From NCBI GenBank assembly GCA_015680905.1, contig CM027381.1, forward strand, positions 90,173,501-90,237,500: DNA of 64,000 nt. The letters run 5' to 3'. Below the pieces are notes generated by a model. It was not told the origin of the DNA. It saw only the letters and a program-made list of their open reading frames with translations, and searched no databases. Source of the stretch: Coptis chinensis (lineage: Eukaryota; Streptophyta; Magnoliopsida; Ranunculales; Ranunculaceae). Below are positions 11,191-46,420 of the stretch, piece after piece (the first letter of the stretch is position 1; each line of letters starts with the position of its first letter). The translations under genes and the position numbers were made by a program.

Positions 11191-11882
11191 GTTTCACCTT
11201 CAATATCATAAGCAATGAGAACTTCTTGATGGCTATTTTCACAAGTTAATCGTCTAGCCAGCCAATGCAAAGCACCATGAACAAATATACCAGATCTGGC
11301 TTCCTCTGTTACTTCGTAATTGGCAATATATGTCTTCGATTATCTCCATGTCCCATGATTTCTCGCTTAGTGAGTATGTAAAAATGCGGTTTGGCGGTTC
11401 AATTAACGTGAACACATAATCATCAAGAGTTGCATTATAACCCAAGCCGCATCCTTTAATATGCAAGTGACGATTGTATATTTGTTGCATCTCCGTCTCC
11501 ATGCATTCGCTAGTAGATGGACTCCATATGCAATGTTTATCATATCTTTCCAAGGTGCATTGAAATTGATAATAGATAGCCAAAGAAGTCCGTTACAAGA
11601 ACCCAAAACAATATCTGTTTCGTGCTCTGGGATCTCAAACGGAGGATTAATCACTAAATCCTTATTCCGTGCTTCAAAATCTAATGTATGCATCCTTGTA
11701 GATTGGATAAGGACTCTATATTCTACATGCTTGTTGATGAAAATAGGATCTGAAAGTAAAGCATTCCATAATTTCAATACATACCTGAATCTTGTAAGAG
11801 ATTGGGCAGGTAGCCAAAATAGTATGTTTTCAATGATCTTTGGTGGGAGAAAGTTTGAGGGCATCACCTTATACCTGGTCAT

Positions 11883-12278: not shown

Positions 12279-12688
12279 AATTTCTACAGTGCGCGGTTTC
12301 CAAATTCTAATTGAAAACATGCTGCCAATTGCCAAACGATAAACAATGTGGTTTAGGGTGGCCCATACCGTACTACTAGTGTACTGGTGCTACTTCCTTA
12401 TAATTATGGACTTAGAATTAGTACAACTTAGATAACTTCCAAACTTCTTATTCAGCTTCAATTTTTTATTTATACTACCGGTTAATTTCTACAGTGCGCA
12501 GTTTCCAAATTCTAATTGAAAACATGCTGCCAATTGACAAACGATAAACAATGTGGTTTAGGGCGGCCCATACCGTACTACTAGTGTACTGGTGCTACTT
12601 CCTTATAATTATGGACTTAGAATTAGTACAACTTAGATAACTTCCAAACTTCTTATTCAGCTTCAATTTTTTATTTATACTACCGGTT
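12279..12688. repeat. Tandem duplication, two 205-bp copies
   Basis: Copy 1 is 12279-12483 and copy 2 is 12484-12688, starting AATTTCTACAGTGCGC and ending ACTACCGGTT. I see only three differences (CGCGG/CGCAG, TTGCC/TTGAC, GGTGG/GGCGG), so the duplication is young. It is non-coding. Confidence 0.95.
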
Positions 12689-12822
12689 CTGCGTAACGGA
12701 AATAAGATGATTGGAAATTGGGATCTTCTCGCCTATTTCATAGACTATAGTCTTAATCACATAAAATTAATTCAGAGGTAAAAAAAAATGAGTCTTGTTA
12801 CTGCCAGACCCTGATTTGTGTT

Positions 12823-12854
12823 GGGCAGACCCCGAGTTGGGTCGGGGTCTGCCC
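12823..12854. repeat. 13-bp perfect hairpin just inside the MULE left end
   Basis: GGGCAGACCCCGA (12823-12835) and TCGGGGTCTGCCC (12842-12854) form a perfect stem with a 6-base loop. It is GC-rich in an AT-rich region and adjoins the terminal repeat. Confidence 0.85.
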
Positions 12855-13199
12855 ATTGTGTTGGGTGCAACTTCGAACCATACACCCCCCAACCAAAACA
12901 CGCAACAAATCGAGAAACAGGCAATAGTCAGTTACCACCCTTCGTCAAATTCACAAAAAATCGCAAAAAAACCTACCAAAACCAAAAACAAAAAATTGGC
13001 TCGTCGAATTCACAAAAAAACCTACCAAAAACCAAAAATTGCGCTTGTGTTCTCCCTCTCGACAGACCCCATCTTCCAGGTGAACTTCACAAGCTTCTTC
13101 TCGCACTTTCAAAGGTATTTTCTCTAAAAAATTAGTGTTTTTTTTTTATATTTTTGCTAGCATGTTATCAATCGCTCGTCTTCTTCACTTGCTAATTTA
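12855..13199 (+). other. MULE subterminal region, no supported gene
   Basis: This stretch has overlapping short open frames but no recognisable protein. It contains a diverged direct repeat (AATTCACAAAAAA...ACCTACCAAAA at about 12948-12985 and 13008-13040), and looks like a subterminal or 5' UTR region of the element. Confidence 0.35.
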
Positions 13200-14325
13200 A
13201 TGCAACCTAAAAAATACTTTCAAAGCTCTTGTATTTAGGTCTTCTTCAATGCAACCTATTTTAATCATCGCCATCTTCTTTACAATTTGTTCTAACAATT
13301 GCCTACCACGAATAATTTGGTTCGAGAGCATGATTTTTGCTCTCCTCTTTAATGGAGATGAATTTCTAAATGAAGTTGAACCTTGTTTCCAAGTTTTTGT
13401 TGGTCCATCAAATCCCACCACCCCACCTATTTTTTGAAATGGTGGGTGATAGAACTATAGAAGAGCTAAGATATGTTTTTATGACACTCACGGTTTGTTT
13501 GTTCCTAGTGATGATGTACAACAAAGAAGCAAAATGAATGACCACGATTAAAATAGTAGAGTGATCATATCTTCATAGAAATTAGTCAAATTACACATTT
13601 TAATCTGTCAAGGTTCAGGGAGGTGTTGAGACTATCTTTGTCACTTGCTACATTTAGATGTGCGCACAATGAAGTTTCATCAGTGTATTGCAGGAAGTGA
13701 GCCACGGGAAAAAAGGAAAAATAAGTTGGCCATCTTTGTCACAACTCCTAAAGTACAAATAAATGGAATATCTTGTCACCGATATTGTTTTAAACTCTTA
13801 ATTGTTGGACTTTCTTGTTCATATTTCTTGGTTACCACTTGCCAAGGTTTAATGGTCAAAGTGGTATCACAAAAAGAACAAGGAGACCGAAGTTGCACGA
13901 CTTGCACGGGTGGACTGTGGGACATAGAAAATGTGTGACCTCCGAGTCCGGCCTCTGCGAGGGTTTCAAGTGTTTCACTACAAGATGAATATGATTTTCT
14001 CTTGTGGTTTGTTTCCAATTTTCCATCCTAAAACATGCGAAAAAGTTGTGGTTAATATGATCGAGCCACATATCTAATGAGCTTCCAGTGTTTTCCAAGA
14101 AAGCAAGAAACTATTCATGGAAGAAGTAGTTGACCCATCAAATCCCACCACCCCACCGATTTTTTTCAAAGAATAAGCCAACCTTGGTCGAGACCTATGA
14201 TGGTGTTTTTGATGTCCATGTTCACTGCTAAGTTTTAGCTGTGACATTTCTTCTTTGAGACTTGCATGCCCAGTTTCTAAGTCATGGATCTTTTTCAATA
14301 ACTCCTCTGTTGGTGAGGCGTTCAT
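13200..14325 (-). pseudogene. Fragments of a PAS-domain Raf-like protein kinase gene captured in the MULE
   Basis: From 14325 the minus strand reads MNASPTEELLKKIHDLETGH, a short coiled-coil-like start ending in KKIGGVVGFDG near 14130. The same KKIGGVVGFDG recurs near 13435 and continues TKTWKQGSTSFRNSSPLKRR to about 13335. Joined in order these match the N-terminal region of plant PAS-domain Raf-like MAPKKKs, as I know that family (coiled-coil start, then a Gly-rich GFDG and SxSFRxSSPL segment before the PAS domain). Neither PAS nor kinase domain is present. The duplicated ~30-bp junction (13406-13436, 14134-14163) and ~700 bp between show rearrangement. Captured gene fragments are typical of Pack-MULEs. 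Confidence 0.6.
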
Positions 14326-14961
14326 GTTTTTGCATGAATTGAAAACCCAATGAAGGTTTTGTCCTAAAACTTAATGAACTATGATGGCCTAACCTTGTAT
14401 ATATGTTGTTTGTGAACTTTACAAATGTTTTATGATATTAATTTTTATTATTTCTTTGCTTCTTATCATTCATGGTCCCTGTTTTATGGTGATTATTTAA
14501 AGTGTATCAATTGTCTTCTTTATCTAAAAAAATATTGACAGTAGTTCATCTCATCTTGCAAGTTGACAGTAGGAGTTACCTCATTGCTTTCGTTGTTGCA
14601 CAAGTAAAACAATGTTGCATGTACAACTTGGTGCTCATGCAGACGCTCCTCTTGTCACACTTTAGAACCTAGTTACGTTCTGAGGAACAACTCATAGTGT
14701 GAATATGCATATGCCTTTTTACAGCCCTTTTAACTATATTACAGTGAACTAGTAAAGTGCTTTGTCTACTTGAAAATTTGATACTTATAGTTCTATGCTC
14801 TTATTGCCTTCTCTTGTTGTTTTTTTTACCGAGTTTCCTTAGTTCTGACTACTTTCCTGTTTAGGTTTGCTGTGAAGCTATTGTACATGTGCCAATGTGG
14901 ATTTTACGTTTACAGCATTGCCAATTTACTTATTATTCATTTATTTGGATATTTTGTAGCA
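14326..14961. other. Non-coding stretch upstream of the PMD gene
   Basis: AT-rich sequence with no credible gene. The last part (TATTTTGTAG before the ATG at 14962) could be a splice acceptor of a 5' UTR intron for the PMD gene. Confidence 0.35.
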
Positions 14962-17183
14962 ATGCCTCGAACAAAGAATGTGAAGAATGTAGCAAAAAGT
15001 GTTTTCACGGGTGCTAAGAAGTTGTTAGGTGGGGGGAGTAGTAGTTCGGGTCGCGGTGACCCGCCTGAGAAAAAGAGAGGAAGGGGAACAACCATCTCGG
15101 CATCAGTCCGTAGAGGGGATCGGAAAGTGGATGATCCCAGTAATGTAGTTGTAAGTGGTGTAGACTTAGGAAATCAAAAGAGAAGAAAGGAGACAGTTCC
15201 GAGTGATGTAGATGTAGATGTAGATTTAGATTTAGATATAGATGTAGATGACGATGACGTAAATATGGATAGTGGGAAGAGTGTAGTTGTAAGTCATGTT
15301 GATAGTAAAGAAGATGATAGTGAAGAAGATGATAGTGAAGAAGATGACGAAGAGGGTGTTGATGATGCAGAAGAGGAGAATGACGAGGAGGTGGAGGACG
15401 CGAAGGATGAGGAGGAGGAGGACGAGGACGAGGACGAGGAAGTCCTTGAAATCCCTGTACCTGTACCTCCAGTGAATATTGTGAGAAAGTCTAACAATGA
15501 CTTGGAGTTCTAGAGAGGTGTTTATGGAGGTGGCCCTCGTGTACCACATTTGTTGTATGACTATGCGGTGCACGTGGCTCGCGATGTTTGGGAGGGGCAG
15601 GTAATATTATCATATAGTGTCTATTAGTATTTAAATTTTGTATTACGAAACCTTGTGCATACATTAATACTGAGTTTTTGTTGTTTTAGGCGGAGCGAGG
15701 GGTGTTGAAGTGCCATGGGCACCTAAACAAGTTGGTATAATGGGATATCGTCGGAGAGTGTTCAGACTGTTCTAATTTTCACGTGGAGCTTCAAAGGACT
15801 GGCTTATGTGCTATGGTCTTAGGTGTATACAGGCATCAGGATCCTGTGTTGGTCTCTGCGTTTGTGGAGAGGTGGCATCCAGAGACCAACACGTTTCATA
15901 TATCGTGGGGTGAGATGGCAATCACGTGGGAAGATGTTTCCCAACTCTTAGGAGTTCCGATCAGAGGCAAAGCAATGACTGAGGACACTGATTTGACCCT
16001 GGAACAGACAAAAAGACTCGTCCACAAAGGTCTTGGCATACCCATGGACGAGATATATGCGGAGATGAAATCCAATAAGTTCACTTCCAAAGTTATGATG
16101 GATTTCTTGATGAAGCAGTTTGCTGGGAAGGTAACGGATGAAGATTTACGTGATGAAAATGGGGTTATTGTGAAGAAGGAGTCAACCCAAAAAGAGTTGC
16201 AGTTTGCTAGGAGAGTTTATATGTTATTTTTCTTTGGATGTATCGCCTTCACCGACACGTCTAGAACTGCAGTTCCCATTTGTTATCTGAGACTGCTTTT
16301 GAAATTTACCGAGATCAGAGACTACGCGTGGGGTGCAGCCTTATTAGCTTACTTGTATAGGGGTCTTGAGACTGCCACAAGTGCCAAGGTGAAGGGTGTT
16401 TTAGGCTATTTCACTCTCCTACAGGTATTAGTTTTTTTGTTTTTCTTTTCAATGTCAATTTTATCTATCTATTACAATATTAACTGGGTGTCTATATTAA
16501 TCTAGGTATGGATTTATGAGTACTTCCCGGTGTTCAGGCCATTCCCAAACTTGGCATATCAGTTGAGCATGTCGCGTGCTCATAGGTACTCAGTTACTCA
16601 GTCTGTTTATGCTAGCATAACAGCTGCATTGAAGCATACCCGAGCGGTGATTGATAATATGACTTGTACCGATGTAAGCATTTTTGTTTGTAAATAGTTT
16701 TATTTATTAATTGATATTATTAGTATGTGGTTAATGATTAATTTCCTCGATCATATGCTATTTGACAGGTTGAATGGTATCCCTATGCTGAAGTCCGAGC
16801 TACACACCCGGTAGATGAAATAGCATTTTTCGAGGGATTTATATGCTTTCTTGATGATGTCGAGCAATACAATGTTTCGAGGGTTGTGCGTCAGTTGGGT
16901 CATATGCAGTTTGTACCCTCAAATCCCCCAAGACCAAACGACGCAAACTACTTCCAGACGTGGGTACGATGTGAAATTTAATATTGCATCTTCCTACTGG
17001 AGTAAATGGCAAAATCACTTGATACAACTTGAACATCGAGGACCCATTACGTCTTATCCATGGGAGTGTGTGAGTAGATACATGAGTTGGTACAAAAACA
17101 ATAGTCATATTCGAATGATAAACCATGATCATCCTAATCACTACTCCCTACAAAGTCTTCCATATCATAATCTGGTGAGTTAA
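14962..17183 (+). pseudogene. Plant mobile domain (PMD/MAIL-type) gene, decayed
   Basis: Four exons can be proposed: 14962-15600, 15690-16424, 16506-16673 and 16769-~17180, all with GT-AG introns. Exon 1 gives a basic start (MPRTKNVKNVAKSVFTGAKK) and a long Asp/Glu-rich tract (15190-15450). Exons 2-4 give the PMD: FVERWHPETNTFHISWGEMA, WEDVSQLLGVPIRG, a Phe/Leu-rich core, YLYRGL, VWIYEYFP, VEWYPYAEVR. Proteins of this kind act in silencing and meristem maintenance or are transposon passengers. It is broken: TAG at 15511-15513, TAA at about 15736-15738, and a frameshift near 16970 after QTW, beyond which FNIASSYWSKWQNHL continues in another frame. Position inside a MULE favours the transposon-borne class. 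Confidence 0.8.
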
Positions 17184-18359
17184 TACCTTACAACTTTAGT
17201 TTTTGTTATTTTTTGTTACAGAGATGCTTGTGCGCGTCAAGAAACACAAGATCAGCGGCACTCATCAAGGCCAAGTCCTTGTCAGACACGATCACAAATG
17301 CCCTTTCTTCACCCAGTAAGTCGTTAAACTAATGCAAAGCCCACTCATAGTCTATCGCTGTTTCGGACTGAAGCAACACTTGACAGACCGTGAAAGACTT
17401 CCAGGTTGAAGTCACCCCCACAAACTGTATAAAAGGCCACTGATACTTATTGGTTTTGTAGGTGGCGTCTATGATGAAAACTTTTGGAAAAGTCCGAGCC
17501 ATTTTAACACCGTCCAGATGGGCCCATAACAATCCCGTTATCTCATCCGTATTCGTATCCTCCCTCACCTCCTCGAAATAATGGTTTTTTCGCTAACAAC
17601 TCACTTGAATTTCTGTATTTGCGAAATTTATCGTTCATATCCAATGTCCTCACCTTGCGAGGGCATTGTAGACTTGACATATGCTAGATAGGTTATCAAG
17701 AAACCTATGTCGATGGACTTCAAAACTTCTTTAGACTTAACTCTATTTTGAGTCATCTCTGACAAGAACTTGAATTGTGGAATGGTAAGTCGAGTAGCAA
17801 ATGCATGTCCTTCAAGGGTCTTCGCCAATGGATGGTTGTGAACACCATTAAGAACGACAATTTTCTAACTATCGACAGTGCCGCGTTGAAAAATACATCT
17901 TAACTTAAATGGGCATCCACGTTTCTTGGTTCCTGTATTTCTCTTATTAGCCTTCTCTACCTTTTTGTGTGAACGATATACGCCTGAACTCTCGCAAGCT
18001 AAATCCAGCCTTGGTACTCGGTTCCCGTTAGCATTCTGCGACTTCCCAATTACCACAACTATATAACATTGTTTTTCCCGAGTAGTTGCCCAACCAATTA
18101 CGTCATTACGTGTATGAAATACCTAAAGATATGAAAGAAAACAACAATCAATAAACTAATATAATTTCATTTAGAAAATAAAAAGAAGTGAAAACAATGC
18201 CTACTATGTACCTCTTCCGTAGTAAATATTTCTATTGTATCCATTGAAAGCGGTTGAACATCATCCACCTCATTCAAGTTTCCAGAGTTCTCGAAACACA
18301 CCGAAGGATACTAAATGAAGAACAGTTGTTAATTGATGTATTATGGACCCCGTAAAGAC

Positions 18360-18770
18360 ATAGCCACACTATTTGGCTTAAGTACCAAATGTCACAAACA
18401 CACCGTTTACCACTGTTTGTGTTTTTCTATGTTTAAATCCTAAAACGACATGGCCACACTGTTTGGAATAAGTCCCAAATGGTGTGGACACACCGGTAAA
18501 GAGGCCAAAAAACAGAACTCTATGTTTTTCCAAGTTCAAATCCCAAACGACTTTGCCACACTGGTCAAGAGGCCAAAAAACAGAACTTCATATTTTTTCA
18601 AAGTTCAAATCCCAAACGACTTGGCCACACCGTTTGGGACTTAGTCCAAACGATGTGACCACACCGGTAAATTTTTTTTTCTTCTAAGTCCAAATCCCAA
18701 ATGACATGGCCACATCGTTTTGGGCTCAGTCCAGACAGTGTGACCAGACCGTTTGGTGTGCAATACGAAT
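18360..18770. repeat. Degenerate minisatellite with palindromic unit in a transposase intron
   Basis: Variants of AAATCCCAAACGACTTGGCC / ACACCGTTTGGGACTAAGTC recur four to five times. The unit at 18622-18663 is itself a near palindrome: TGGCCACACCGTTTGGGACT (18622-18641) pairs with AGTCCAAACGATGTGACCAC (18643-18662). A second repeat, AAGAGGCCAAAAAACAGAAC, occurs twice (18498, 18568). Confidence 0.8.
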
Positions 18771-18948
18771 GACCTAGCCGAGTCGTTTAAGCCTCGGGTG
18801 TTCGAATTTTCTCTTTTAGTCCTATATATCACTGTACACATGCATAATTACTACATGCATAATTACTACATGCATAATTATGTTTAATTTAGATTTACCT
18901 TATTCTTATTAAATGCATCATCATCCATTCCTCTATTTTCTTCACTTT

Positions 18949-19083
18949 AACTTGTTCTACATTTTCTTCTTGAATGGGGTCACTTGGAACTTGTTCTACA
19001 TTTTTTTTCTTGAATGGGATCACTTATAACTTGTTCTACATTTTTTCTTGAATGGGGTCATTTGGAACTTGTTCTACATTTGG
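18949..19083 (-). repeat. In-frame coding repeat in the transposase N-terminus
   Basis: Three to four ~42-bp copies encode EQVPSDPIQEENV-like units on the minus strand. Expansion of the T-run in the middle copies shifts the frame and creates a stop, so slippage at the repeats contributed to decay. Confidence 0.75.
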
Positions 19084-19374
19084 AACATAATGCATTACAT
19101 TTTCTTCTTCATCTTCATGTTCTAAAATGGGGTTTGGCGCTTCCATTAGTGTTTAGTGTTAGTGTTAGTATATAGATTTCTTTAGGGTTTAAGGGTTTAA
19201 GTTTTTTTTATAGTGGAAGAGAAGAGAATAGAAGAGAAGGGCTGAAAAGATTACAACAAGTTAAATTCACATTGGTTTGGGAGGTGCCCAACACAAAACA
19301 ACTTTTAGGGCTAATGACATATTTGTAATAATCACAATATGGGGTCCGGTAGTAACGAATACCAAAAAAATTGA

Positions 19375-19989: not shown

Positions 19990-21011
19990 TGTTCGATTTC
20001 AGATATATACCTTAGCATCAGAGAAAGCGGTCTCCATTGAAGGTTGTGGTCTGTTTGTTTCTTTAAACAAACAAGCATTTTGGCATATCTTTTGTGGGGA
20101 GAGTCTGTATAGTTTGGCAATTTACGTCGTACAAAATCAGCAGTTCATTCTGTGGTTCGTATACTATACATGTGCCATTTATCCCAGGCGGAGGTGATAG
20201 TGTCTTGGTTATTAGTGGGGGTATGATGCAGAACGACTTGGCCCAGGACACATTCAAACCATAATCTTTCATCACCCATGCCACAATGCCACAGGGATAT
20301 CTGCAAAACACGCAAAGAAATCCGTCCAATGCTGAAAGTATTGTACAGTCATAGCCACCAGCATAGTCAGGCGTTGGCACCTTTCGAATGTTTTCACCAG
20401 CCATATCAAGCTACGACATCTGTACTATAGTAAAGTCTCAGCCAATGCAGATATACCAGTTCCACCTATTCTAAAATCATCGTAATAGTCCTCATTTATT
20501 GTTTTGACTCTCCATGATTTCTTGCTCAGTGAGTATGTTTTGAATTTCTCAGATGCAAAAAGTACAATTTCATAATCATGAAGAGTTGCATTATAACCGA
20601 AGCCAGACCCTTTAATACTCGAATCATCAAGTATTCTTAAAGTCTCCTTGCATTCCATATGCATACACTACTCCAAAACTTATAGTTATAATTGATGGAT
20701 ATGCAAAGCAGACCGTTACAACAACCCAGAATATCAATACGATTTTGTTCTGCGTTTACCTTAAACGGTGGATGAATCACTAAATCCTTATTCATTGTAT
20801 ACGTCCTCGTGGATAAATTCAGGAGTCTATAATTTTTATGCTTGCTGATAAAAGTAGGACCTGAAATTAAAGCATACCATGATTTCGACACAAGCCTGAA
20901 TCTTGCAAGAGACGGCACTGGTAGCGATAACAGTATGATTTCAACGATCTCTGGTGGAAAAAAGTTAGACATCCTCTTCCACTTGGTCTTATAGTCAACT
21001 GGTAATGGCAA
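19990..21011 (-). pseudogene. F-box/FBA gene with frameshifts and an internal deletion (pseudogene 2)
   Basis: It starts MPLPVDYKTKWKRMSNFFPP at 21011 (the second Met, before SNFFPPEIVEII, is the likely start by comparison with pseudogene 1). It has a good F-box (PPEIVEIILLSLPVPSLARF), then GCCNGLLC, GFGYNATLHDYEIV and, after the breaks, FERCQR/KVPTPDYAGGYD and VAWVMKDYGLNVSWAKSF. The frame changes near 20650; a stop and loss of roughly 25-30 codons occur near 20405-20440, removing most of the usual 'NGALHWLA...' segment. Encoded family: SCF substrate receptors. No insertions are present, so it serves as the empty-site reference for pseudogene 1. Confidence 0.82.
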
Positions 21012-21272
21012 TGCAAAAAAAAAAAAAAAAAAAGTAAAAAGAGGAGTAACGTGGTACGCAACTTGTAAGATGGAGTCTTCTTTTCTAGGGTTATGGGGTA
21101 TATAAAAAAAAGGTTTTCCATCCTGCTATATATCACACGTGAATCACACACTTGACAACTCAAGTGACAAAACACACGTGTTTTAAACTTTGAATATAAA
21201 GTCAACCAGACAGCCACTAAAAATGAAAACTAGTTGGGAGCTTGAAAGACTTGGAACACCAGAAAACCAAAC
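21012..21272. promoter_or_regulatory. Divergent 261-bp spacer with two G-boxes and TATA box
   Basis: The spacer between the F-box pseudogene (minus) and TATA/Tha4 (plus) contains two perfect CACGTG G-boxes at 21136-21141 and 21175-21180. A TATAAAG sits at 21195-21201, about 75 bp before the TATA/Tha4 start codon. G-boxes are bound by bZIP and bHLH factors, including light-response factors, which would suit a thylakoid gene. Function is inferred. Confidence 0.55.
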
Positions 21273-24200
21273 ATGGAGATTTCTGCGACAACTAGATCTC
21301 TCCATTTAATCTCAAAAACATCATTACCAACATCTTTAGCTTCAGCCAACTCTCTTTACTTTAACAATGTGTCAAATGATCTGTTGAAGAAAAGCAAGAA
21401 GAATTGCTTGAGTTTAAAAAGAGCTAGAGCTGAAAGAAATGGATTTAACTGTAGATCCATGTTTGGTCTTGGTGTTCCGGAGATTGCTGTGATAGCTGGA
21501 GTTACTACTTTACTGTTTGGTCCAAAGATGGTACCTGAGCTTGGGAAAAGTATTGGTCAAACTGTTAAAAGCTTTCAACAGGTTTGTTAAAATAAGTTTC
21601 TTATATTCATTTATTTTATTATTTTATTTTTTTAGTTTCTAGTGTTTAGATCTTTGGCCAATAAGATTTTAGTTTGAAATGAATGGAAGTATCAAAATTT
21701 GATTGAATTGGAGTGAGTGGGGACTGGGGAGTATTAGAAATGGAATGTGAGTGGTGATGATGATTGAAGATTCAAACTTGAAACATTTAATTGATTCAAA
21801 TACTGAAAGACAATGATAAATCATTGATGGAGGGTGCGATTTTGGTGTGGAATAGAGTAAGGCCAGTTTGCAAACAATATGGGCATGAAATTTAGTTTTA
21901 CTATTTAGTTTAACTAGTAAATGGGCACGTGCGTTGCACGTCTTGTGAAGATGGTTAACTGTTTATTCTCTCTGGGAAGAATGATCTCTGTTAAAGAAAA
22001 AGAAAATTACTTTGTAGTCCAATACATTTTTTGAGTTGTAAGTATTATTTTTGTTTGCCAATAAATATGAATGCTGTAATAGAAAATATAGACAAAGCAA
22101 CTGATGTTATGAGGGACAAAATATAAGTACAGACAAAATTATTCAAAAGTACTACATGGCAATGTGAGTTTTATCCCTGGCCAACATAATTTTAGATTTT
22201 TCACGCTAACATTAAATACATTTGAAAAAGTACTCCACATCCTGTTTCCATTTAATGGAGGATTGCTAGTACATAAGTAAAGTGGCAGTAAACAACTAAT
22301 TAAGCAATAACAAATGGAAGCTCCAAAGAAGTACAACAATGAGACGAATTGAAGGTATTCAATATTGACCTTGATGCTCTTGGTTGTAACACTTGGCTTC
22401 TTCCCAATACTATACTATGATTGATTGATGTCTCATGAGGAACTGATGTCTCACTACACCAACAGCGTAGGTAAGGTCTGGTCTCGTAATAGTGAGGGTC
22501 TGAAAGAGGCGGCGCTTCCCACTATGATTGATTGATGTCTTTCCTTCTTCAGCTTTCTTCCTACACCTACAGTGAAAGAACTGATAAGATTTCGTGAAAG
22601 GAAGACTCAAACTATCACAAGCGAGACGGGGGGAGGGACAGCAGGGGAGGCTTCCACTTTTCAGAGGTCCACCCCGAACCGAAGGGGCGGAGGGCGTCCT
22701 ACCAATGAGGAGTGTGAAACGTCGGTTTCTCTGGCTCTAGGTCTTTTCTTCCATATAGCCAAAATTTCGAATTCTGAGAATTGCTAGGAGATCTATACTA
22801 TGCACCTTTGTTGATTTCTAATCCTAGGATCTTGAAACTTACCCGAGACGAGTCCTATCCGTGTCCCCTGCTTCATCAGAATTAGAAGCATCCCAACTTC
22901 CGCATTTCACACCTCTGATTTCACACAGAACAAGAATCAAATGAATAAATAGACTTTATTGAGTGAAAGTAAGGCGTTTATGTTACCTGAACATCTGCAG
23001 CGTAGATTAGAACGGAAGGCGAAACTAAGGATTCCATCTACAAAGAATGGCCATATAAAAGAAAGGAAGAAGACACCAGAACCATGTAGTTAACGTGCCT
23101 TCTTCAATGGCGACTTCTAATCCGGGATAATCGATAGCCAAGGATGAGTTGCCTCACCCCCGGGCACCAGAGACTGTAACAGCGCTTAGCTCTTCCATGC
23201 TCTTCCGGTCCAGCTAATGAGAAAACCTTTCCTCAAGTTGCGAACGAAGAGAGCCCTCTCCTCCCTCTTCTAACTCCGCCTCCTGGGGCCAGATATCCCA
23301 TGATGAATGGAAACAGAACTGCGCTTGCCTCTCCTACTGAGCATCATCTGACCTTGACGGAACGGAATTAAGCAACATTGTCTAGGCCTGAAAAATATAA
23401 TCAGTAACAAAACCACTGATATTCTAAACTGAAAAGATAATATCGGCACATTATAAACAAACAGATTTACGATGAAACTGTAGGTTACACCAAATTAAAG
23501 TTACAGTATATTAAACCAACATTATGCGATAGCTAAATGCATATGAAAAAGTTGACAATCAATTAACACATTCTACGAAGGCCAAAATATTAGGGATTCG
23601 CTTTACACTTAACACAATCCATGGTAAACACAATTTAGAATCCTTTCAAGCCTTGATTCTACTGAGATACTTTTGTTCCGATCCGTATCATCACACGTTA
23701 ATACTTGGCTTATATTCACTATACATAACTCATTGTGAGAAAAATATATCGAATAGCCCTATTCATTTGTTAGGAAGCAAATGGAAACAAAATCATAAAT
23801 ATCGGAGATGTTATGCAATCATTGTAAACCCTCATCATCGAATGCATAGCAAATAACATAAACATCACATAATCATTTCATAAATCAGTGCATGATAAAT
23901 AATGAAAAGGAAAAAAAAACCCTTAAGAAGCAAGAATTACGAATCTCCATATTCTGATTAGGAAATGTTATCAATGTTCAATTGGCCGTTGACTTATAAA
24001 AGTACCATTGTCATTGGAGCAATAATTTCTTCATAACATGTCATTTATGTGGATCAATAAAAAATGCATTGGATTAGAATATCCACAGCTGATAATAATA
24101 GTAAAAAATAAATAAAAGTGTGTCATATAATCAAGTAAAGGTTTTCAAATTTTAGCAATACATCCAGGGATGTGACGATTAGAAAGTTGGGAACCAAAAC

Positions 24201-35755: not shown

Positions 35756-36036
35756 ATTCTGAATCCGTAGTTTGAAGTTCTACTGTACATTTTCGGTTTC
35801 TCACTGCGTCAAGTAAGATGGTCTGTTTGCAAGGACCTGTTCAAGGCCAGCGCTGCACGCTCTAGGATTTAGTCTTATACTCTAATCTCTTTGAAATTAG
35901 TTAGGGGTTAGGCAGAGTCAGACTGCATCCTTTGAACTCAATGTTAGATATATACTAGATTTTGGACCCGGGCATACGCTCGGGATCTATTAAATATTTT
36001 GTGTGCTTAAAAGGCTTTACAAAATGTCACATACAA

Positions 36037-36675
36037 ATTTTCGAATCAGAATATATTTTTATTGAAAATAAACCAAAATACGTTAATGAGCAGCGATTAT
36101 GGTGCATAAGTACTTGGGAACTAAGGGATCAAATTGAGATAGCCTCTTCACTTTGTGGTTTTGGATATTAATCCATAATTTTCAAATATAATTATCTCAA
36201 ACTTGATCTAGCTTGTATAATAGTTTTCTTAGATTTATGGTAATTTAGTGGCAAATTTTCGAATTAGAATAGATTTTTATTAAAAATAAACGAAATACGT
36301 TAATGAGCAGCGATTATAGTGCATAAGTACTTGGAAACTAAGGAATAGCCTTTTCACTTTGTGGCTTAGGATATTAATCCGTAATTTTCAAATAGAATTA
36401 TCTTAAACTCGATATAACTTGTATAATAGTTTTCTTAGATTTATAGTGAGTTAGCGGCAAATTTTCGAATCAGGATATATTTTTATTGAAAATAAGCCGA
36501 AATACGTAAATGAGCAGCGATTATGGTGTATAAGTACTTGGAAACTAAGGGATCAAATTGAGATAGCCTCTTCACTTTGTGGTTTAGGATATTAATCCGT
36601 AATTTTCAGATAAAATTATCTTAAACTCGATTTAGCTTGTATAATAGTTTTATTAGATTTATGGTGATTTAGCAG
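36037..36675. repeat. Three ~210-bp tandem repeats near Helitron A 3' end
   Basis: Units start near 36037, 36250 and 36457 with AAATTTTCGAAT(C/T)AG(A/G)AT and contain GTTAATGAGCAGCGATTAT. Diverged copies occur in Helitron B near 41575 and 41790, with a further partial copy near 41900. Confidence 0.85.
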
Positions 36676-37099
36676 TAAATCATCACCGCTCGGCTTACGT
36701 ACTAATGTGTACAAATCTCTAAAACAGATTGATTGTTTCCACATCCTCAAAGAATACACTACTCTCACTTGAAAAGATTTATCACATGAACGTGTCCTAC
36801 GAACGGGTGTCGTTATATTAAATTATTCTAAAAATTATATTAATTACTCATTTAAATTTCTTGCACCACTTTCTATAAAAATAAAGCATCAAACCTTGAT
36901 AAAATTCATCGACTTTTTTTTATTGCTAGGTTTAACAATAGAAGTTTTGTGAGAATATCCATTGTGGCGAAGATAATATTGAAGCTACTTGAATAGCAAG
37001 ACATTCCCAATCACAATAAAAGAATTAAGATAAACACTACTTAAAATGCAAAACTATATTTGTCGAGACATTTATTTCCCCTACATATAATATAAATAT

Positions 37100-39600
37100 G
37101 TTTTAGGGTTATTAGTTTAATACATTTGCATCAAGTTTTTTATTTTCCATTAATTATTCTTTGAGGTTAGTTTAATGTAATACGTTGCATCCAGTTTTCA
37201 ATTTCTCATTAATTATTATTTGAGGTTAATTCAATGCAGTTGCATCAAGTTTCCGATTTCCCGTTAATTATTATTTGAGGTTAGTTTAGTGCAATTGCAT
37301 CCACTTTATGATTTTTCGTTAGTTATTCATTAAAGTTAATTCAGTATAGTTGCATCCAGTTTTCAATGTTTCGTTAATTAGTATTTGAGATTAGTTCATT
37401 GCATTTGCATCCTGGTTCCAATCTCCCGTTAATTACTCTTTAAGGTTAGTTCAATACATCTGCATCCAGTTTCTGATTTCCTGTCAATTATTTTTCTAGG
37501 TTAGTTCGATAGTTTACAATTTCTATACAGTTTGCATACATGTAAGAGTCTATTTTTATAAACTCACATTCATTTTGGGTTCCTAATTACTCGTATTTAT
37601 GTTTTGAGGTCAGTGCGATGCAGTTACATCCGACTTCCGATTTCCAGTTAACTATTTTTTGAGGTTATTTCAATGCATTTGCATCCAATTTCTGATTTCC
37701 CATTAGTTAATCTCTGATTTTAGTTTAATGCAGTTGCATTCAGTTTTTGGTTTTCCGTTAATTATTTTTTGAGGTTAGTTCAATGCAATTTCATCCAATT
37801 TTTGATTTTATGTTAATTGTTCTTTGAGGTTAGTTCAATGTATTTACATCAAGTTTTCGATTTTCCGTTAATTATTTTTTGAGTTTAGTTCAATGCAGTT
37901 ACATCAAATTTATAATTTCTCGTTAATTATTCATTTAGGTTAGTTCAATGCAGTTTTATCCATTTTTCAATGTTTCGTTAATTAGTCTTTGAGATTAATT
38001 AGTTCATTGCATTTGGGTTTCCCATTAATAACCGATTTCCCATTAATAACTCTTTAAGGTTAGTTTAATACATCTGCATCTAGTTTATGATTATTTATGC
38101 TTTGAGGTTAGTTTGATGCAATTATATTTGGTTTCTGATTTCCCGCTAATTATTCTTTGAGATTATTTCAATGCATTTGCATTTAGTTTCCGATTTCCCA
38201 CCAATTATTCTATGAGGTTAGTTCAATGCAATTGCATTCGGTTTTTGATATTATGTTAATTATTTTTTGAGTTTAGTTCAATGCATTTGCATCCAGCTTT
38301 CGATTTCTCATTAATTATTATATGAGGTTTGTTTGATGTATTTGCATACCGTTTCCGATTTCCCGTTAGTTATATGACGTTAGTTTAATACAATTGCATC
38401 AAGTTTCCGATTTTTAGCTAATTACTTTTTGAGTTTAGTTTATTGCATTTGCATAAAGTTTTCGATTTTCCGTTAATTACTCTTTGAGCTCAGTTATGTA
38501 TTTGAATCTAGATTCCAATTTCATTTTAATTATTCAATGTGGTGTGTAATACCAACTTCTACTGATCTATTTGTAGTGCACAAACATGATATAAAAAGTA
38601 AATTATGCTTGATTTACTATGTGAGATCATCGAAGATTATCCAGTTCCTGATTTCCCATTAATTATTCTTTAAATTATGCATGACTCACTATGTGGAATC
38701 TTCAAAGATTATCTACGAACGGGTGTTGTTATATTAATTATTCTGAAAAAATATTTGCAAATATGCATAACTATTATATATTAATATTATATTGATCACT
38801 CAACCAAATTTCTTATAACGTGAAAACCTCACTCTCCATTAAAAAAAAAAGAACACACTTTTGATAAACCTTTCAACTTCATTTTATTGTTTATAATTAA
38901 TAAAATAAGTTTAATTGAAATTTTCTGAGATTGCCTAATAAGGTGAAATTTATATATATTGAAGCTACTTGAATAGCAAGGAGTTCTCAATCATACGGAA
39001 AGATATAAGATAAACATCATTTTAAATGCAAAACTATACTTATTGAAACATTCCCACAACATATAACCCAACTATGTTTTGAGGTTAGTTCAATGCATTT
39101 GCATCCAGTTTATTTTTTGAGATTAGTTCAGTGCAGTTGCATCCGGTTTCCGATTTCCTATTAATTATTTTTTAAGATTAGTCCCACGCATTTGTATCAT
39201 ATTTCCAATTTATAATTAATTTTTCTTTGAGGTTAGTTCAATTCAGTTGCATCTAGTTTCTGATTTTTCCGTTAATTTAATCTTTGAGGGTTAGCTCAAT
39301 GTATTTGCATCCAGTTTCCGATTTTTTGACAATTTTTTTTTTTTTTTTTTTTTTTTTATGTTAGTTTGATATATTTGCATCCAAGTTTTGATTTTCCTTT
39401 AATTATTATTTGAGGTTAGTTTAATGCAGTTGTATCCATATTCCAATTTCCTATTAATTACTTTTTAAGATTAGTTTAATGCTTGCATTTGCATCCAATT
39501 TCCAATTTCCCGTTAAATATTATTTGAGGTTAGTTCGATGCATTTACATCCAGTTTTCGGTTCCCCATTAATTGTTTTTTGACGTTAGTTTCATTCAGTA
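37100..39600. repeat. ~55-bp minisatellite arrays in Helitron A
   Basis: The unit is approximately GAGGTTAGTTCAATGCATTT then GCATCCAGTTTCCGATTTCC then CGTTAATTATTCTTT (52-56 bp). About 25 units run from 37100 to 38510, and about 10 more from 39060 to 39600, separated by ~500 bp of other sequence. Many carry ATTTGCAT or AGTTGCAT. Copies are 75-90% alike by eye. Confidence 0.88.
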
Positions 39601-39791
39601 TTATATATTTTTTTAAATATTTATATTTGTCATTATTGCGTTGTCGTTTTTTTTTTTTCATTTTCTATTATATATTTTGTGATGTTATTTTTTGTATAAT
39701 TGTTTTTAACTATGTTTTGAAGCTATGTTAAGGATATATTTGAAATAAGTTGTTGTTTTATCATAGACACTAAAATTGTATGATTTGTAAT

Positions 39792-41104
39792 CAAGAAATT
39801 GGGCTAGAGAGTCTCATTTAAAAAAAAAACAACTCTAAAGCCCTATCCATAATTTTTTTGGGTTTTAATACCCCTACATTGTTTTTATTCGCCATAAGTG
39901 TTTTTTTATAGAAAATCTTTAGAATCTAAGCTTTTGACTCGAGACTAGGTGCCACATGTTATTTTTTAATATAAATTATTCTCTTTTTCACCCTTCCAAA
40001 ATAACTACTTGTAGATAAGATAACTACCAGAATAAAGATTGAATAAGATAACTACTTTTAGATAAGATAACTACTTTTAGATAAGATAACTACTAGAACA
40101 AAAAGAGTAGATTTTGGGTTTGAATAGAATTTAGCAAAAAGTACGTGTATTGCTCCAAAAGTTAAATTTGACACTACTACCTGTTTTCATCCGAATGTGG
40201 ACGTTATAAACTTATACATTTTAAAATGCAGATGCACCATGTTATAAACTTATATATTTTAAAATGCAGATGCACCACGTTATAAACTTATATATTTTAA
40301 AATGCAGATGCACCACGTTATAAACCTATATATTTTAAAATGCATACACACCACGCATTTTAAAATACAGATACAAAATGCATTTGATTATTTATTTTGT
40401 GGGTTTGATTAACTACTATTAAATGAAACAGGTTGGTTTAGAGTTTATTGTTTATAAATTTAGAATATAGGGATTAGGGTTTAGTGTCTTAAGGTTTAGG
40501 GTTTAGGCTTAGGGTCTAGTTTATAGGGGTTAGGGTTTAGTGTCTTAAGGTTTAGGGTTTAGGCTTAGGGTCTAGTTTATAAAGATTTTGGGTTTAATGT
40601 CTAGTGGTTTAGAGTTTAGACTTAACGACTAGTGTCAAATGCCTCCACAAAATATTGGAGACATAATATTTTTAGTTTTTTCATTACCAAAAAAGCTAGT
40701 CAAGGGTGTACTTTCATTATAGCATATGGGCCACTCATATAGGCACAAGTATTGGTGTATTGCAACAAAGAAGTATTGTCCAAGGGCTCTCATTCCTGCG
40801 CACTCATACACTCTAGATGCCCTCTTTTCATTATATGCATTTTTAAATATGAAGGCAGGTAGTTATAAGTGAATTTTTTGTGTGAAATTTAATTTTTTAT
40901 TTTGTATCCCACTATATTACTCGGTAGATAGTCGGTTATGTTTGTTTCCAAGTGAGGATATTTTCGTCTATTCTTGGTAAAGTTGGATAACAGGTGGTTA
41001 GTTTCATATTCTGGTCAAATTGGGGTATTAAATTCTAAACAAATTTAAGAGGAGTCTTAGGACTACTAAATATTTATAACTAAGTCCTCTAGACTAATTT
41101 TCTG
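39792..41104. mobile_element. Non-autonomous MULE nested in Helitron A (TSD GATTTGTAAT)
   Basis: Identical GATTTGTAAT words at 39782-39791 and 41105-41114 flank the insert. Its ends, CAAGAAATTGGGCTAGAGAG and the reverse complement of the right end CAGAAAATTAGTCTAGAGGA, match at most positions. Helitron B has the uninterrupted site (GATTTGTAGTAAGGAATTAG near 45740). A 10-bp duplication with imperfect inverted ends fits a MULE. It has no gene and holds three tandem repeats. Confidence 0.75.
40017..40590. repeat. Tandem repeats inside the nested MULE
   Basis: AGATAAGATAACTACTTTT recurs at 40017-40095. A 39-bp unit with GTTATAAACTTATATATTTT and AAAATGCAGATGCACCAC recurs about four times at 40200-40355. 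A 54-bp unit containing TTAGGGTTTAGTGTCTTAAG occurs twice at about 40474-40590. Confidence 0.85.
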
Positions 41105-42549
41105 GATTTGTAATAGGGAATTAGTTTATACAAATCACATATTTTTTAGCAATTTTTTTATTTGATTAAATATATAAGAATTGGAGCACTAAAAATGTTT
41201 GATTCGTAATAGGAAATTAACTTTTACAAATCACCTATTTTTTAGCAATTTTTTTTATTTTATCAATTATATAAAAATTAAAAATACACTCAAACTCTCC
41301 AAATATAAGAATTAGAAATATACTCAAACTCTCAAAACTTCAAAGAGGTTCTATGTATGTGGGATTGTACACTATTAAAAAAGATTATCTTTCATATTAT
41401 AGTGCCATATAGGAGAGAGCAAAAAACTAACTCTCATATTAAAGTGCCATATAGGAGAGAGAAAATCTTCCATTAGAGGTCTGCTTTTAGTATATAGACT
41501 AGATTTTTTGGACGGGCATGGATCTATTAAATATTTTGTGTCTTTGAAAAGGCTTTTTATAAAATGTCTCACACAAATTTTTGAATCAGAATATATTTTT
41601 ATTGAAAATAAATCGAAATATGTTAATGAGCAATGATTATGGTGCATAAGTACTTATAAATTAAGAGATCAAATTGAGATAGCATATTCACTTTATGGTT
41701 TAGGATATTAATCCATAATTTTCAAATAAAATTATCTTAAACTCGATCTAGCTTGTATAATAGTTTTTTAGATTTATGGTGATTTAGCAAACAAATTTTG
41801 AATCAAAATATATTTTTATTGAAAATAAACCGAAATACGTTAATGATCAGCGATTATGGTGCATAAGTACTTGGAAACTAAGGGATCAAATTGAGATAGC
41901 CGAGTAGCAATTATGGTGTATAAATACTTGGAAACTAAGGGATCAAATTGAGATAGCCTCTTCACTTTGTGGTTTAGGATATTAATCCATAATTTTCAAA
42001 TAAAATTATCTTAAACTCGATCTAGCTTGTATAATAGTTTTATTAGATTTATGGTGATTTATCGGTAAATCATCACCGCTCAGCTTACGTACTAATGTGT
42101 ACAAATCACTAAAATAGATTGATTGTTTTCATATCCTCAAAGAATACACTACTCCCACTTGAAAAGATTTATCACATGAACGTGTCCTACGAACGGGTGT
42201 TGTTATATTAAATTATTCTAAAAAATATTAGCAACTATGCATAACTATGAGATATGAAAATTATATTAATTACTCAATTAAATTTCTTGCACCACTCTCT
42301 ATAAAAAGGAAGTATCAAACTTTGATAAAACTCATCGACTTCTTTTCATTGTTAGTTTTAACAATAGAAGTTTGATTGAAGTTTTTTGAGAATGTCCAAT
42401 TTAGTGAAGATAATATTGAAGCTACTTGAATAGCAAGGCATTCCCAATCACAATAAAAGAAGTATGATAAACATTACTTAAAATGCAAAGCTATATTTGT
42501 CGAGACATTTATTCCCCCTACATATAATACAAATATATTTTAGGGTTAT

Positions 42550-45530
42550 TAGTTGAATGCATTTGCATCAAGTTTATGATTTTTCATTAATTATTCTTTG
42601 AGGTTAGTTTAATGTAGTACGTTGCATCCAGTTTCCAAATTCCCATCAATTATTCTTTGAGGTTAGTTTAATGCAGTTGCATCAAGTTTCTGATTTCCCA
42701 TCAATTATTATTTAAGGCTAGTTCAGTGCAATTGCATCCATTTTATGATATCCCGTTACTTATTCATTAAGGTTAATTCAATCTGATTTGCATCCAGTTT
42801 TTTTATGTTTAGTTAATTAGTATTTGAGATTAGTTTATTGAATTTGCATCCGTGTTCTAATCTCTCGTTAATTACTCTTTGAGGTTAGTTCAATACATCC
42901 GCATCCAATTTCGATTTCTCATTAATTGTATTTCTAGGTTAGTTCGATAGTTTACAATTTTTATACGGTTTGCATACATGTAAGAGTCTGTTTTTTAAAC
43001 TCACTTTCATTTTGGGTTCCTAATTACTCGTAATTACTCATGTGAGAAGGCTAAAAACCGACATTTATGCTTTTGAGGTCGATCTATGATCAGATTACAT
43101 TCGACTTTCGATTTTTAGGTTAACTATGTTTTGAGGATATTTCAATGCATTTGCATCCAATTTCTGATTTCCCGTTAGTTAATATCTTATTTTAGTTTAA
43201 TGTAGTTGCATCTAGTTTTTGGTTTTTTGTTAATTATTCTTTGAGGTTAGTTCAATGCAGTTGCATCCAATTTCCGAATTTATGTTAATTGTTCTTTGAG
43301 GTTAGTTCAATGCATTTGCATCAAGTTTTCGATTTCTCGTTAATTATTTTTTGAGGTTAGTTCAATGCAGTTATACCACATTTATAATTTCTCGATAATT
43401 ATTCATTTAGGTTAGTTCAGTGTAGTTTCATCCATTTTTCAATGTTTCGTTAATTAGTCTTTGAGATTAGTTCATTGCATTTGGATCTAGTTTTCGATTT
43501 CCCATTAATAACTCTTTAAGGTTAGTTCAATACATCTGCATCTAGTCTCTGATTATTTATGCTTTGAGGTTAGTTCGATGCAATTATATCTGGTTTCTGA
43601 TTTCCCGTTAATTATTTTTTGAGATTATTTCAATGCATTTGCATTTAGTTTCCGATTTCCCACCAATTATTCGATGAGGTTAGTTTAATGCGGTTGCATT
43701 GATTTTTTATTTTATGTTAATTATTTTTTGAGTTTAGTTCAATGTATTTGCATCCAGTTTCGATTTTTGGCCTATTAATTATTATCCGAGGTTTGTTTGA
43801 TGTATTTGCATACCGTTTCGATTTCCCATTAAATATTTTTCAATGATTTGTATACAATTTCTAATTTCCCTTTAGTTATTATCCGACGTTAGTTTAATGC
43901 AATTGCACCCAGTTTTCAATTTCTAGTTAATTACTTTTTAGTTTAGTTTATTGCATTTGCATGAAGTTTCCAATTTCCGTTAATTACTCTTTGAGCTCGG
44001 TTATGCATTTGAATCAATTTCCGATTTCCTTTTAATTATCCAATGTGGTGTATAATACCAACTTCTATCGATCCATTCAGAAGTGTCCTTGCAAACATGA
44101 CATAAAAAGTAAATTATGTTTGATTTACTATGTGGGATCATTGAAGATTACCGGTTCGATTTCCTATTAATTATTCTTTAAATTATGCATGACTTACTAT
44201 GTAGAATCTTCAAAGATTATCTACTTAACGGTGTTGTTTATATTAATTATTTTGAAAAATATTTGTAAATATGCAAAACTTTTATATATTAATATTATAT
44301 TAATCACTCAACCAAATTTCTTATAGCGTGAAAACCTTATTTTCCATTAAAAAAAATAACTCATGTACCTTTAATAAAACCCTTCAACTTCATTTTGTTG
44401 TTTAATAATAGAAGTTTGATTGAAGTTTTGTGAGATTGCCTAATAAGGTGAAGTTCATATATATTGTAGCTACTTGAATAGCAAAGAGTTCCCAATCATA
44501 CTGGAAAGAGATAAGATAAACATCATTTTAAATGCAAAACTATACTTACCTGAGACATTCCCACAACATATAACCCAACTATGTTTTGAGGTTAGTTTAA
44601 TGTATTTGTATCCGGTTTTGATTTTTAAGTTATTTATATTTTGAGGTTAGTTCAATACTGATTTGCATCCAATTTCCAATTCCGTTATTTATTTTTTGAG
44701 ATCGGTTCAATCTGATTTGCATCCAGGTTTCTGATTTTTCGTTAATTATTCTTTTGATTAGTTCAATACATTTGCATCTAATTTCCAATTCCCATTAATT
44801 ATTCTTTGAGGTCAGTTTAATACATTTGCATCCGGTTTCGATTTCCCATTAATTATTTACGTGAGATTAGTTTAATGCATTTTGCATCCAGTTTATGATT
44901 TCTCGTTTATTATTTGATAAAGTTACATTTGCATCTAGTTTCGATTTCTCATTAATTATTGTTTGAGATTAGTTCAATGAATTTGCATCCAGTTTCCTAT
45001 TTACCATTAATTATTTTTGAGGTTAGTTCAATGCATTTGCATCCGGTTTATTTTTTGAGATTAGTTCAGTGCAGTTCCATCCGGTTTCCGATTTCCTATT
45101 AATTATTTTTTAATATTAGTTCCATGCATTTGCATCATGTTTCCAATTAATAATTAATTTTTCTTTGATGTTAATTCAATGCAATTGCATCCAGTTTCTG
45201 ATTTTCTATTAATTTAATCTTTGAGGGTTAGCTCAATGCATTTGCATCCAGTTTCCGATTTGCCGACAATTATTTTTTTTATGTTAGTTTGATGTATTTG
45301 CATCCAAGTTTTGATTTTCCGTTAATTATTCTTTGAGGTTAGTTTAATACAGTTGTATCCATATATATTCCAATTTTCTATTAATTACTTTTTAAGATTA
45401 GTTTAATGTTTGCATTTGCATCCAGTTTTTGATTTTCCGTTAAATATTATTTGAGGTTAGTTCGATACATTTGCATCCAGTTTTGGTTCCCCATTAATTG
45501 TTTTTTTCACGTTAGTTTCATTCAAGATTA
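42550..45530. repeat. ~55-bp minisatellite arrays in Helitron B
   Basis: Same unit as in Helitron A, roughly 27 copies from 42550 to 44030 and roughly 17 from 44590 to 45530. The second array is longer than in A, so array length has changed since the copies diverged. Confidence 0.88.
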
Positions 45531-45570
45531 TATATATATTTTAAAATATTTGTCATTATTTATTTGCTGC

Positions 45571-45571
<1 letters not shown>

Positions 45572-45618
<47 letters not shown>
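45572..45618. repeat. Poly(T) tract of 47 bases
   Basis: An uninterrupted T run in Helitron B; the same place in A (39641-39658) has a shorter, broken run. Confidence 0.95.
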
Positions 45619-45625
<7 letters not shown>

Positions 45626-46420
45626 CTATTATATATTTTGTGATGTTATTTTTTGTATAATTGTTTTTAACTATGTTTTGAGGCTATGTTAAGGATATAT
45701 TGAAATAAGTCGGTGTTTTATCATAGACACTAAAATTGTATGATTTGTAGTAAGGAATTAGTTTATACAAATTACATATTTTTAGCATTTTTTTATTTGA
45801 TCAAATATATAAGAATTGGAACACTAAAAGTGTTTGATTAAGTAATAGAAAATTACTTTTTACAAATCACCTATTTTTAGCAATTTTTAAAAATATTTGT
45901 CATTATTGCTTTCGTTTTTTTTTTTTTTTTTTTCTATTATATATTTTGTGATGTTATTTTTTGTATAATTGTTTTTAACTATGTTTTTGAGGTGTTAAGA
46001 ATATAGATAGGTGTTTTATCATAGACACTAAAATTGTATGATTTGTAATAAGGAATTCTACAAATTACTTTTTTTTTTTTTTTTTTTTTATTTGATCAAA
46101 TATATAATAATTGGAACACTAAAAGTGTTTGATTCATAATAGGAAATTACCTTTTACAAATCACCTATTTTTAGCAATTTTTTATTTGATCAAATATGTA
46201 AGAATTGGAAATACACTCAAACTCTCCAAATATAATAATTAGAAATACACTCAAACTCTCTAAGAGGTTTATGTATGTGAGATTGTAAATTTTATTAGAA
46301 AAGACTATCTTTCAGATTAGAGTGCCACATAGGAGAGAGAAAAAATTAACTCTCTCATATTAGAGTGCCACATAGGAAAGAGAAAATCCTCAATTAGAGG
46401 TCTCTGCTTTAGTATATAGA

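Follow-up and report, generated by a model that had tools for sequence, protein, structure and literature searches.

A 64,000-nucleotide stretch of the Coptis chinensis genome (contig CM027381.1; hereafter the window, meaning the whole of this stretch) contains, side by side, a gene for a plant mobile domain (PMD) protein, a transposase remnant and kinase-like pieces. The question this locus raises is whether these are parts of a single Mutator-like element (MULE), as a preliminary description of the DNA had proposed, or unrelated neighbors. We find that the PMD gene, the transposase and captured host DNA form one mobile MULE occupying window positions 12790-19363. Our fuller reading, to which we assign a probability of about 0.88, is that this copy belongs to a high-copy two-gene MULE family with an exchangeable cargo slot, and that it has decayed and undergone an internal deletion.

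The window copy measures 6574 bp between its ends, both of which are degenerate. The left end, at 12790, begins GAGTCTTGTTACTGCC..., and the right end, at 19363, reads GGTATTCGTTACTACC... in reverse complement. These limits lie within 2 bp of those first proposed (12792-19363), and the degenerate terminal repeats expected around the composite are present, flanked by 8-bp direct repeats:

12782-12789: left target-site duplication, AAAAAAAT, with an identical 8-mer at 19364-19371
12790-12830, + strand: left terminal repeat, degenerate; the family boundary recurs at 12779-12796
12790-12998, + strand: left end and subterminal region, common to relatives
19325-19363, - strand: right terminal repeat, degenerate and partly deleted, matching the family right end
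19364-19371: right target-site duplication, AAAAAAAT, identical to the left 8-mer

The same ends are found elsewhere in the genome, of which 935.6 Mb in 116 contigs were searched. Matches to 12689-12960 were scored at 40 places, comprising the window, one segmental duplicate of it and 38 others; the left boundary falls at window 12779-12796 in 36 of these 38, the remaining two beginning at 12835-12836. Sharing of the subterminal sequence extends to ~12924-12960 in most relatives and to 12998 in one (L025). Nine copies were examined for both ends, and all seven in which both could be located, the window copy included, have target duplications of their own, of 7-9 bp (8 bp in five, 9 bp in one and 7 bp in L019, where the duplication by eye is 8 bp). 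As a control, mismatched pairings of ends gave a repeat of at least 7 bp in 3 of 42 cases. The six relatives with located ends are 9073, 9983, 9067, 11331, 7198 and 8561 bp long (7.2-11.3 kb). Terminal inverted repeats of 30-38 nt and 87-89% identity are present in four of the eight relatives examined and are degenerate in the window copy. The family thus has the features by which MULEs are recognized, namely a transposase domain, terminal inverted repeats and a target duplication, for which 8-11 bp is expected.

The two genes also recur together. The PMD stretch (15680-17200) has 1129 first-look candidates in the genome and the transposase stretch 755; for each, the 40 that were scored, window included, are 91-100% identical. 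For closer comparison we took 10-kb stretches of 20 relatives picked by PMD similarity to the window, all of which are PMD-bearing by choice, so that transposase-only copies lie outside the sample, and additionally took the right side for six copies. A transposase gene, whole or in part, lies convergently downstream of PMD in 17 of these 20 PMD-chosen relatives. Among the best 40 of the 1129 PMD candidates and the best 40 of the 755 transposase candidates, a transposase place follows downstream of 11 of the 40 PMD places (window included), and the wrong order does not occur. With common ends and target duplications found, the proposal that PMD, transposase and captured DNA belong to one MULE is upheld, and among the PMD-sampled copies we saw neither the two genes separated with ends of their own nor an absence of these ends from other copies.

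The PMD gene is identified by the window open reading frame (ORF) 15741-16502 (+), which matches Pfam PF10536 with E 2.4e-36 and 126 bits (cut-off 34.9); a PDB search with the PMD core gave no useful match. Exon limits were taken from splice-like sites and comparison with relatives:

14962-15600, + strand: PMD coding exon 1, carrying the N-terminus and its acidic runs; interrupted by a stop at ~15511
15690-16424, + strand: PMD coding exon 2, encoding the PMD core (PF10536), with a single stop close to the exon start
16506-16673, + strand: PMD coding exon 3; weak PF10536 match, E 0.041
16769-17174, + strand: PMD coding exon 4, frameshifted; PF10536 E 0.00075

Full copies have a fifth exon, and this last exon is missing from the window copy, which has two stops as well as frame breaks in the exons tested. 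The genome contains at least 139 PMD matches. Other PMD families in it (L002-L006 and L008) are ~27-35% identical in the core.

Opposite the PMD gene, the ORF at 17332-17592 (-) matches the MULE domain PF10551 (E 6.8e-11), the match ending at profile position 49 of 99, and the relative L022 has the same domain at E 2.5e-22; the assignment to a MULE-type transposase therefore stands in both. In full copies the order is DNA-binding domain, MULE domain, SWIM-like finger, proline-rich linker and an OTU-looking C-terminal domain, the last three recognized by eye. The FAR1 label originally given to the transposase holds in part: L022 passes the cut-off of the related PF08731 (29.6 bits against 21.6), but falls below that of PF03101 (21.5 against 28.1), and the window fragment itself stays below the PF08731 cut-off at 18.4 bits. 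The transposase portion of the window comprises:

17217-18122, - strand: transposase main exon, truncated to ~1/3; DNA-binding domain and first half of the MULE domain
18212-18310, - strand: putative short upstream exon, placed from splice-like sites
18413-18751: tandem repeats in the presumed transposase intron
18942-19146, - strand: putative first coding exon, read from sequence; repeats within

Repeats related to those at 18413-18751 also occur between the two genes of full copies, for example L022:6500-6970.

The remainder of the element, between its left end and the PMD gene, is where the copies differ. Relatives match the window at 87-94% identity across the PMD region, yet cannot be aligned with it from ~150-200 bp inside the left end up to the PMD start. 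Since the mean divergence of PMD introns is only 0.045, we take this non-alignment to reflect replacement rather than decay. We compared the left arms of 14 copies, these being the window and those 13 of the 20 relatives whose left end is defined, joining slots where more than 40% of each aligns. The 14 arms fall into nine cargo groups. Of the 182 ordered pairs, 118 have no sequence in common, and in 14 the overlap exceeds half. In the window the slot is filled as follows:

12999-14949: variable cargo slot as filled in the window copy; margins aside, not common to the other 13 arms compared
13329-13435, - strand: captured 5' end of a presumed PAS/Raf-like kinase gene, piece A, 3' part of the captured exon; 93.5% identical to the donor exon (L046)
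13436-14120: later ~0.7-kb insert inside the captured exon, absent from three relatives with this cargo
14121-14580, - strand: captured kinase 5' end, piece B, with 5' flank, start codon and first ~70 codons; 92% identical to L046
14578-14949, + strand: subfamily-specific region upstream of PMD, ending just before the splice-acceptor-like TTTTGTAG

The origin of the window cargo can be traced to a donor locus (L046, C2:60369600-60370800), a 537-bp stretch of which corresponds to window 14121-14580 (92%) and 13329-13435 (94%); elsewhere its 1.2 kb shows no match to window 13000-15000. The donor holds an open first exon, MNASPTEELLKKIHDLE..., which runs into a PAS-like start and a GTGAGT donor site. 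We take its gene to be a PAS/Raf-like kinase; no profile names a kinase, and the peptide had no useful match in the PDB. The captured part amounts to ~250 bp of 5' flank and ~95 codons, antisense to the PMD gene. Kinase-like sequence at the left of the element is thus confirmed, but as a single captured exon split by an insert, not as the several fragments described earlier. A 37-nt direct repeat stands at the sides of the insert (13399-13435 and 14129-14165), the insert sequence occurs alone at C3:105841422-105842101, and the cargo occurs free of it at C5:87885018, C2:107135324 and C4:60926802. Besides the segmental duplicate, the kinase cargo is found in five further element-like places, of which four have a listed family left end adjacent and two a listed right end ~9-10 kb away (C5:87893761 and C4:70102919); this indicates that the cargo spread as part of the element. 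It is specific to a subfamily, as other copies carry other cargo at the same place.

Among these other cargoes are a histone H2A C-terminus in L038 (Pfam 7.7e-19), a FAE1/KCS (ketoacyl-CoA synthase) sequence in L023 (3.6e-16 and 4.8e-37) and DUF538 sequences in L029 (2e-24) and L031 (1e-12). The ten ORFs scanned were picked by eye from the 119 slot ORFs of at least 55 amino acids in 14 copies, and the share of host genes among them is biased accordingly. The H2A slot occurs nearly whole in six places (93-100% identity, its own included), two of them 69 kb apart on C7, and the DUF538 slot in 15 (87-100%, its own included). Some recurring slots lie directly upstream of listed PMD places, for example C2:77247232 before C2:77249589. 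Three types of cargo (kinase, H2A and DUF538) recur across many places. The kinase and DUF538 cargoes are 5' ends of host genes whose upstream side faces the PMD gene in some copies; the H2A and ketoacyl-CoA synthase cargoes are oppositely oriented, and orientation follows no rule.

The right margin of the slot is sharply defined. Three classes of upstream sequence join the common sequence between TATTTTGTAG and CAATG, and the slot ends at an acceptor-like site 2 nt before the PMD start codon. The acceptor-like AG is kept in 17 of the 18 copies readable there, window included (L020, L027 and L032 are unreadable at this point). The slot may therefore be a 5'-UTR (untranslated region) intron. 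When slot classes are placed on trees of the copies, they require 5 changes against a minimum of 2 both on the PMD tree (0.008 of shuffles are as low) and on the transposase tree (0.03 of shuffles), so that inheritance and exchange of slots seem mixed, on trees that are themselves weakly resolved. Both trees are star-like, with terminal branches of ~0.02-0.055, as after a burst of amplification.

Several results weigh against this picture of a two-gene family with an exchangeable intronic slot. Three of the 20 relatives (L028, L036 and L037) lack a transposase over the ~3.7 kb examined on the downstream side of PMD, and L026 and L034 retain only part of one. No stop-free transposase was found among the sampled copies, each of the 18 rows having at least two stops; the family is presumed autonomous from its architecture. 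The C-terminal domain of the transposase, which contains what we take to be an OTU-type Cys/His motif, gained no profile support for an OTU protease identity: no entry of Pfam, NCBIfam or the PDB matched convincingly, and the fold model was useless (predicted local distance difference test score, pLDDT, 35.5). In the slot, only one 5' class has a clear donor-like GTAAGT close to the left end, and there in six of its seven arms. Of the ten ORFs scanned, five (those taken from L021, L033, L025 and L034 plus a single L031 ORF) matched no family, nor did the slot ORF of L022, whose cargo peptide presumably resembles a receptor-kinase 5' end and had no useful PDB match. Lastly, spectrum-corrected tests of the sampled copies revealed no selection on either PMD or transposase (ratios 0.86-1.20, all |z| <=1.7).

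These tests bear directly on the role of the PMD gene. Among the sampled copies the pairwise ratio of replacement to silent divergence (dN/dS) is ~0.60 for both genes. Purifying selection, which such a value would suggest, was discarded when the signal vanished once substitution types and methylation contexts were controlled, and we read the ~0.60 as an artefact of C-to-T decay. Variants common to several copies were not significantly less rich in replacements than singletons. With no selection detectable, the sampled copies appear to decay neutrally, PMD and transposase alike, and the suggestion raised at the outset, that PMD might help the element to evade or use silencing, gains no support from them. 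The tests excluded PMD exon 3, in which the reference L022 is not in frame, together with codons that could be read in fewer than 10 copies. In the majority sequence the tested PMD codons (exons 1, 2, 4 and 5) are free of stops, and the transposase contains one.

It is accordingly possible, if not what we favor, that PMD is a functionless passenger, captured once by the founder of the family and carried much as the kinase sequence is. The lack of detectable selection would fit this, as would the general capture of host genes by MULEs, and capture of PMD genes by MULEs is inferred in an earlier study (Ikeda et al. 2017, PMC5418596). However, the PMD gene accompanies all three upstream classes while the cargo varies, an association biased by the finding of copies through a PMD query, and a majority sequence without stops in the tested codons implies that PMD was open when the family amplified. 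The opposite extension, that the slot is an evolved intron cassette, repeatedly swapped, which supplies promoters or host-like sequence for escape of PMD from silencing and spreads host gene pieces, strikes us as doubtful. More improbable still is that the slot varies because unrelated transposons inserted into one another there and deletions followed, and not because host genes were captured. The slot ORFs without a family match could be so explained, and one insert within the kinase cargo is itself secondary, but four cargoes represent host gene families (H2A, FAE1/KCS, DUF538 and the kinase), and the edges of the kinase cargo coincide within a few bases with the limits of similarity to a donor that has no element flanks.

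The compact form of the window copy is explained by an internal deletion:

17215-17219: deletion junction; ~3 kb lost, with PMD exon 5 and the C-terminal part of the transposase

From both sides, homology to relatives stops at 17217, and because full copies have a fifth PMD exon and a longer transposase, this junction marks a ~3-kb deletion. The gap of ~40 bp between the genes is its secondary product; of the convergent, closely packed arrangement noted at the outset, the convergence is real but the close packing is not original. The nearest copy (C5:90079724-90086361, offset by ~106.5 kb) has in common with the window its cargo (96%), the deletion junction (93% over an 801-bp query, at C5:90083500-90084300) and both flanks (98% on the right). 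Transposition of the deleted form, which the common junction had suggested, was ruled out as an explanation; as the flanks match too, the copy is a segmental duplicate and not the product of a jump. That a PMD fragment, a MULE remnant and pieces of a kinase pseudogene came together by accident might be argued from the broken state of both genes here and from a nearest junction-sharing copy that is a mere segmental duplicate, but is refuted by recurrence of the arrangement, in the same order and orientation in 17 of 20 copies at other sites and with individual target duplications in the seven copies whose ends were located, and we give it practically no credence.

The locus lies within this ~106.5-kb-offset segmental duplication, and F-box-like gene pieces, recognized by eye, flank the element at 11403-11882 (-) and 20637-21125 (-). 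Two 205-bp tandem copies, 99% identical, stand immediately to its left (12279-12688). Farther right, the ORF 21246-21590 (+) resembles by eye a chloroplast TatA-like first exon (GLGVPEIAVIAGV...), and window 36000-46000 is an AT-rich block (25-29% GC) containing numerous diverged tandem repeats of ~55 bp (TTAGTTCAATGCATTTGCATCCAG...).

Under our reading of the element as a two-gene MULE with an exchangeable slot, the PMD gene reads inward from the left end and the transposase inward from the right. Both would be driven from the element ends, which we model on MuDR because its genes are transcribed from its terminal repeats (PMC3310237). The slot, which reaches from the left end to the PMD start codon, has repeatedly acquired host gene pieces, presumably through MULE transduplication or gap repair. 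These pieces then moved with the element and would be spliced out as part of a 5'-UTR intron. The PMD protein would have served the element when active, for example against silencing.

Several known systems resemble this family in part, among them MuDR, whose second gene is named mudrB. MuDR of maize has two convergent genes transcribed from terminal repeats; the family described here likewise has two genes converging between its ends, one for a MURA-type transposase, but PMD replaces the second gene, and the ends are short and degenerate (~30-40 bp, against a typical 100-500 bp) (PMC3310237). PMD-C members are fused with MULE transposases in several grasses and Amborella, following two captures, and an anti-silencing use has been speculated (Ikeda et al. 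2017, PMC5418596). Here too a MULE mobilizes a PMD gene, but as a separate gene convergent to the transposase. KI-MULE and VANDAL elements with ULP or VANC also have a further, partly captured gene, which in KI-MULEs is in reverse orientation to the transposase, as here, and VANC acts against silencing; in contrast to our family those elements are non-TIR (lacking terminal inverted repeats) and involve another protein family (PMC2528002, PMC13317346). Pack-MULEs similarly hold host gene fragments between MULE ends but are non-autonomous, whereas 17 of the 20 relatives of this cargo-carrying family have a transposase gene, whole or in part (PMC3310237). A variable captured region beside a common transposase is known from grapevine Pifvine-3 and Hatvine-6, which belong to the PIF and hAT superfamilies and for which the available part of the source does not mention PMD (PMC2528002). 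Further sources for comparison are PMC8616336 and PMC3903597. In the listed titles and abstract openings of mainly open literature, we found no report of a MULE in which a PMD gene stands free, faces the transposase convergently and adjoins a variable cargo slot.

The family thus represents a high-copy system in which a silencing-related PMD gene, a transposase and captured host genes travel together, and a single genome offers a test of whether PMD proteins borne by elements act on silencing. The many junctions found at this single slot, in elements alike in other respects, provide a view of how MULEs capture host DNA, and the family bears also on whether elements that keep their own transposase gene can carry cargo.

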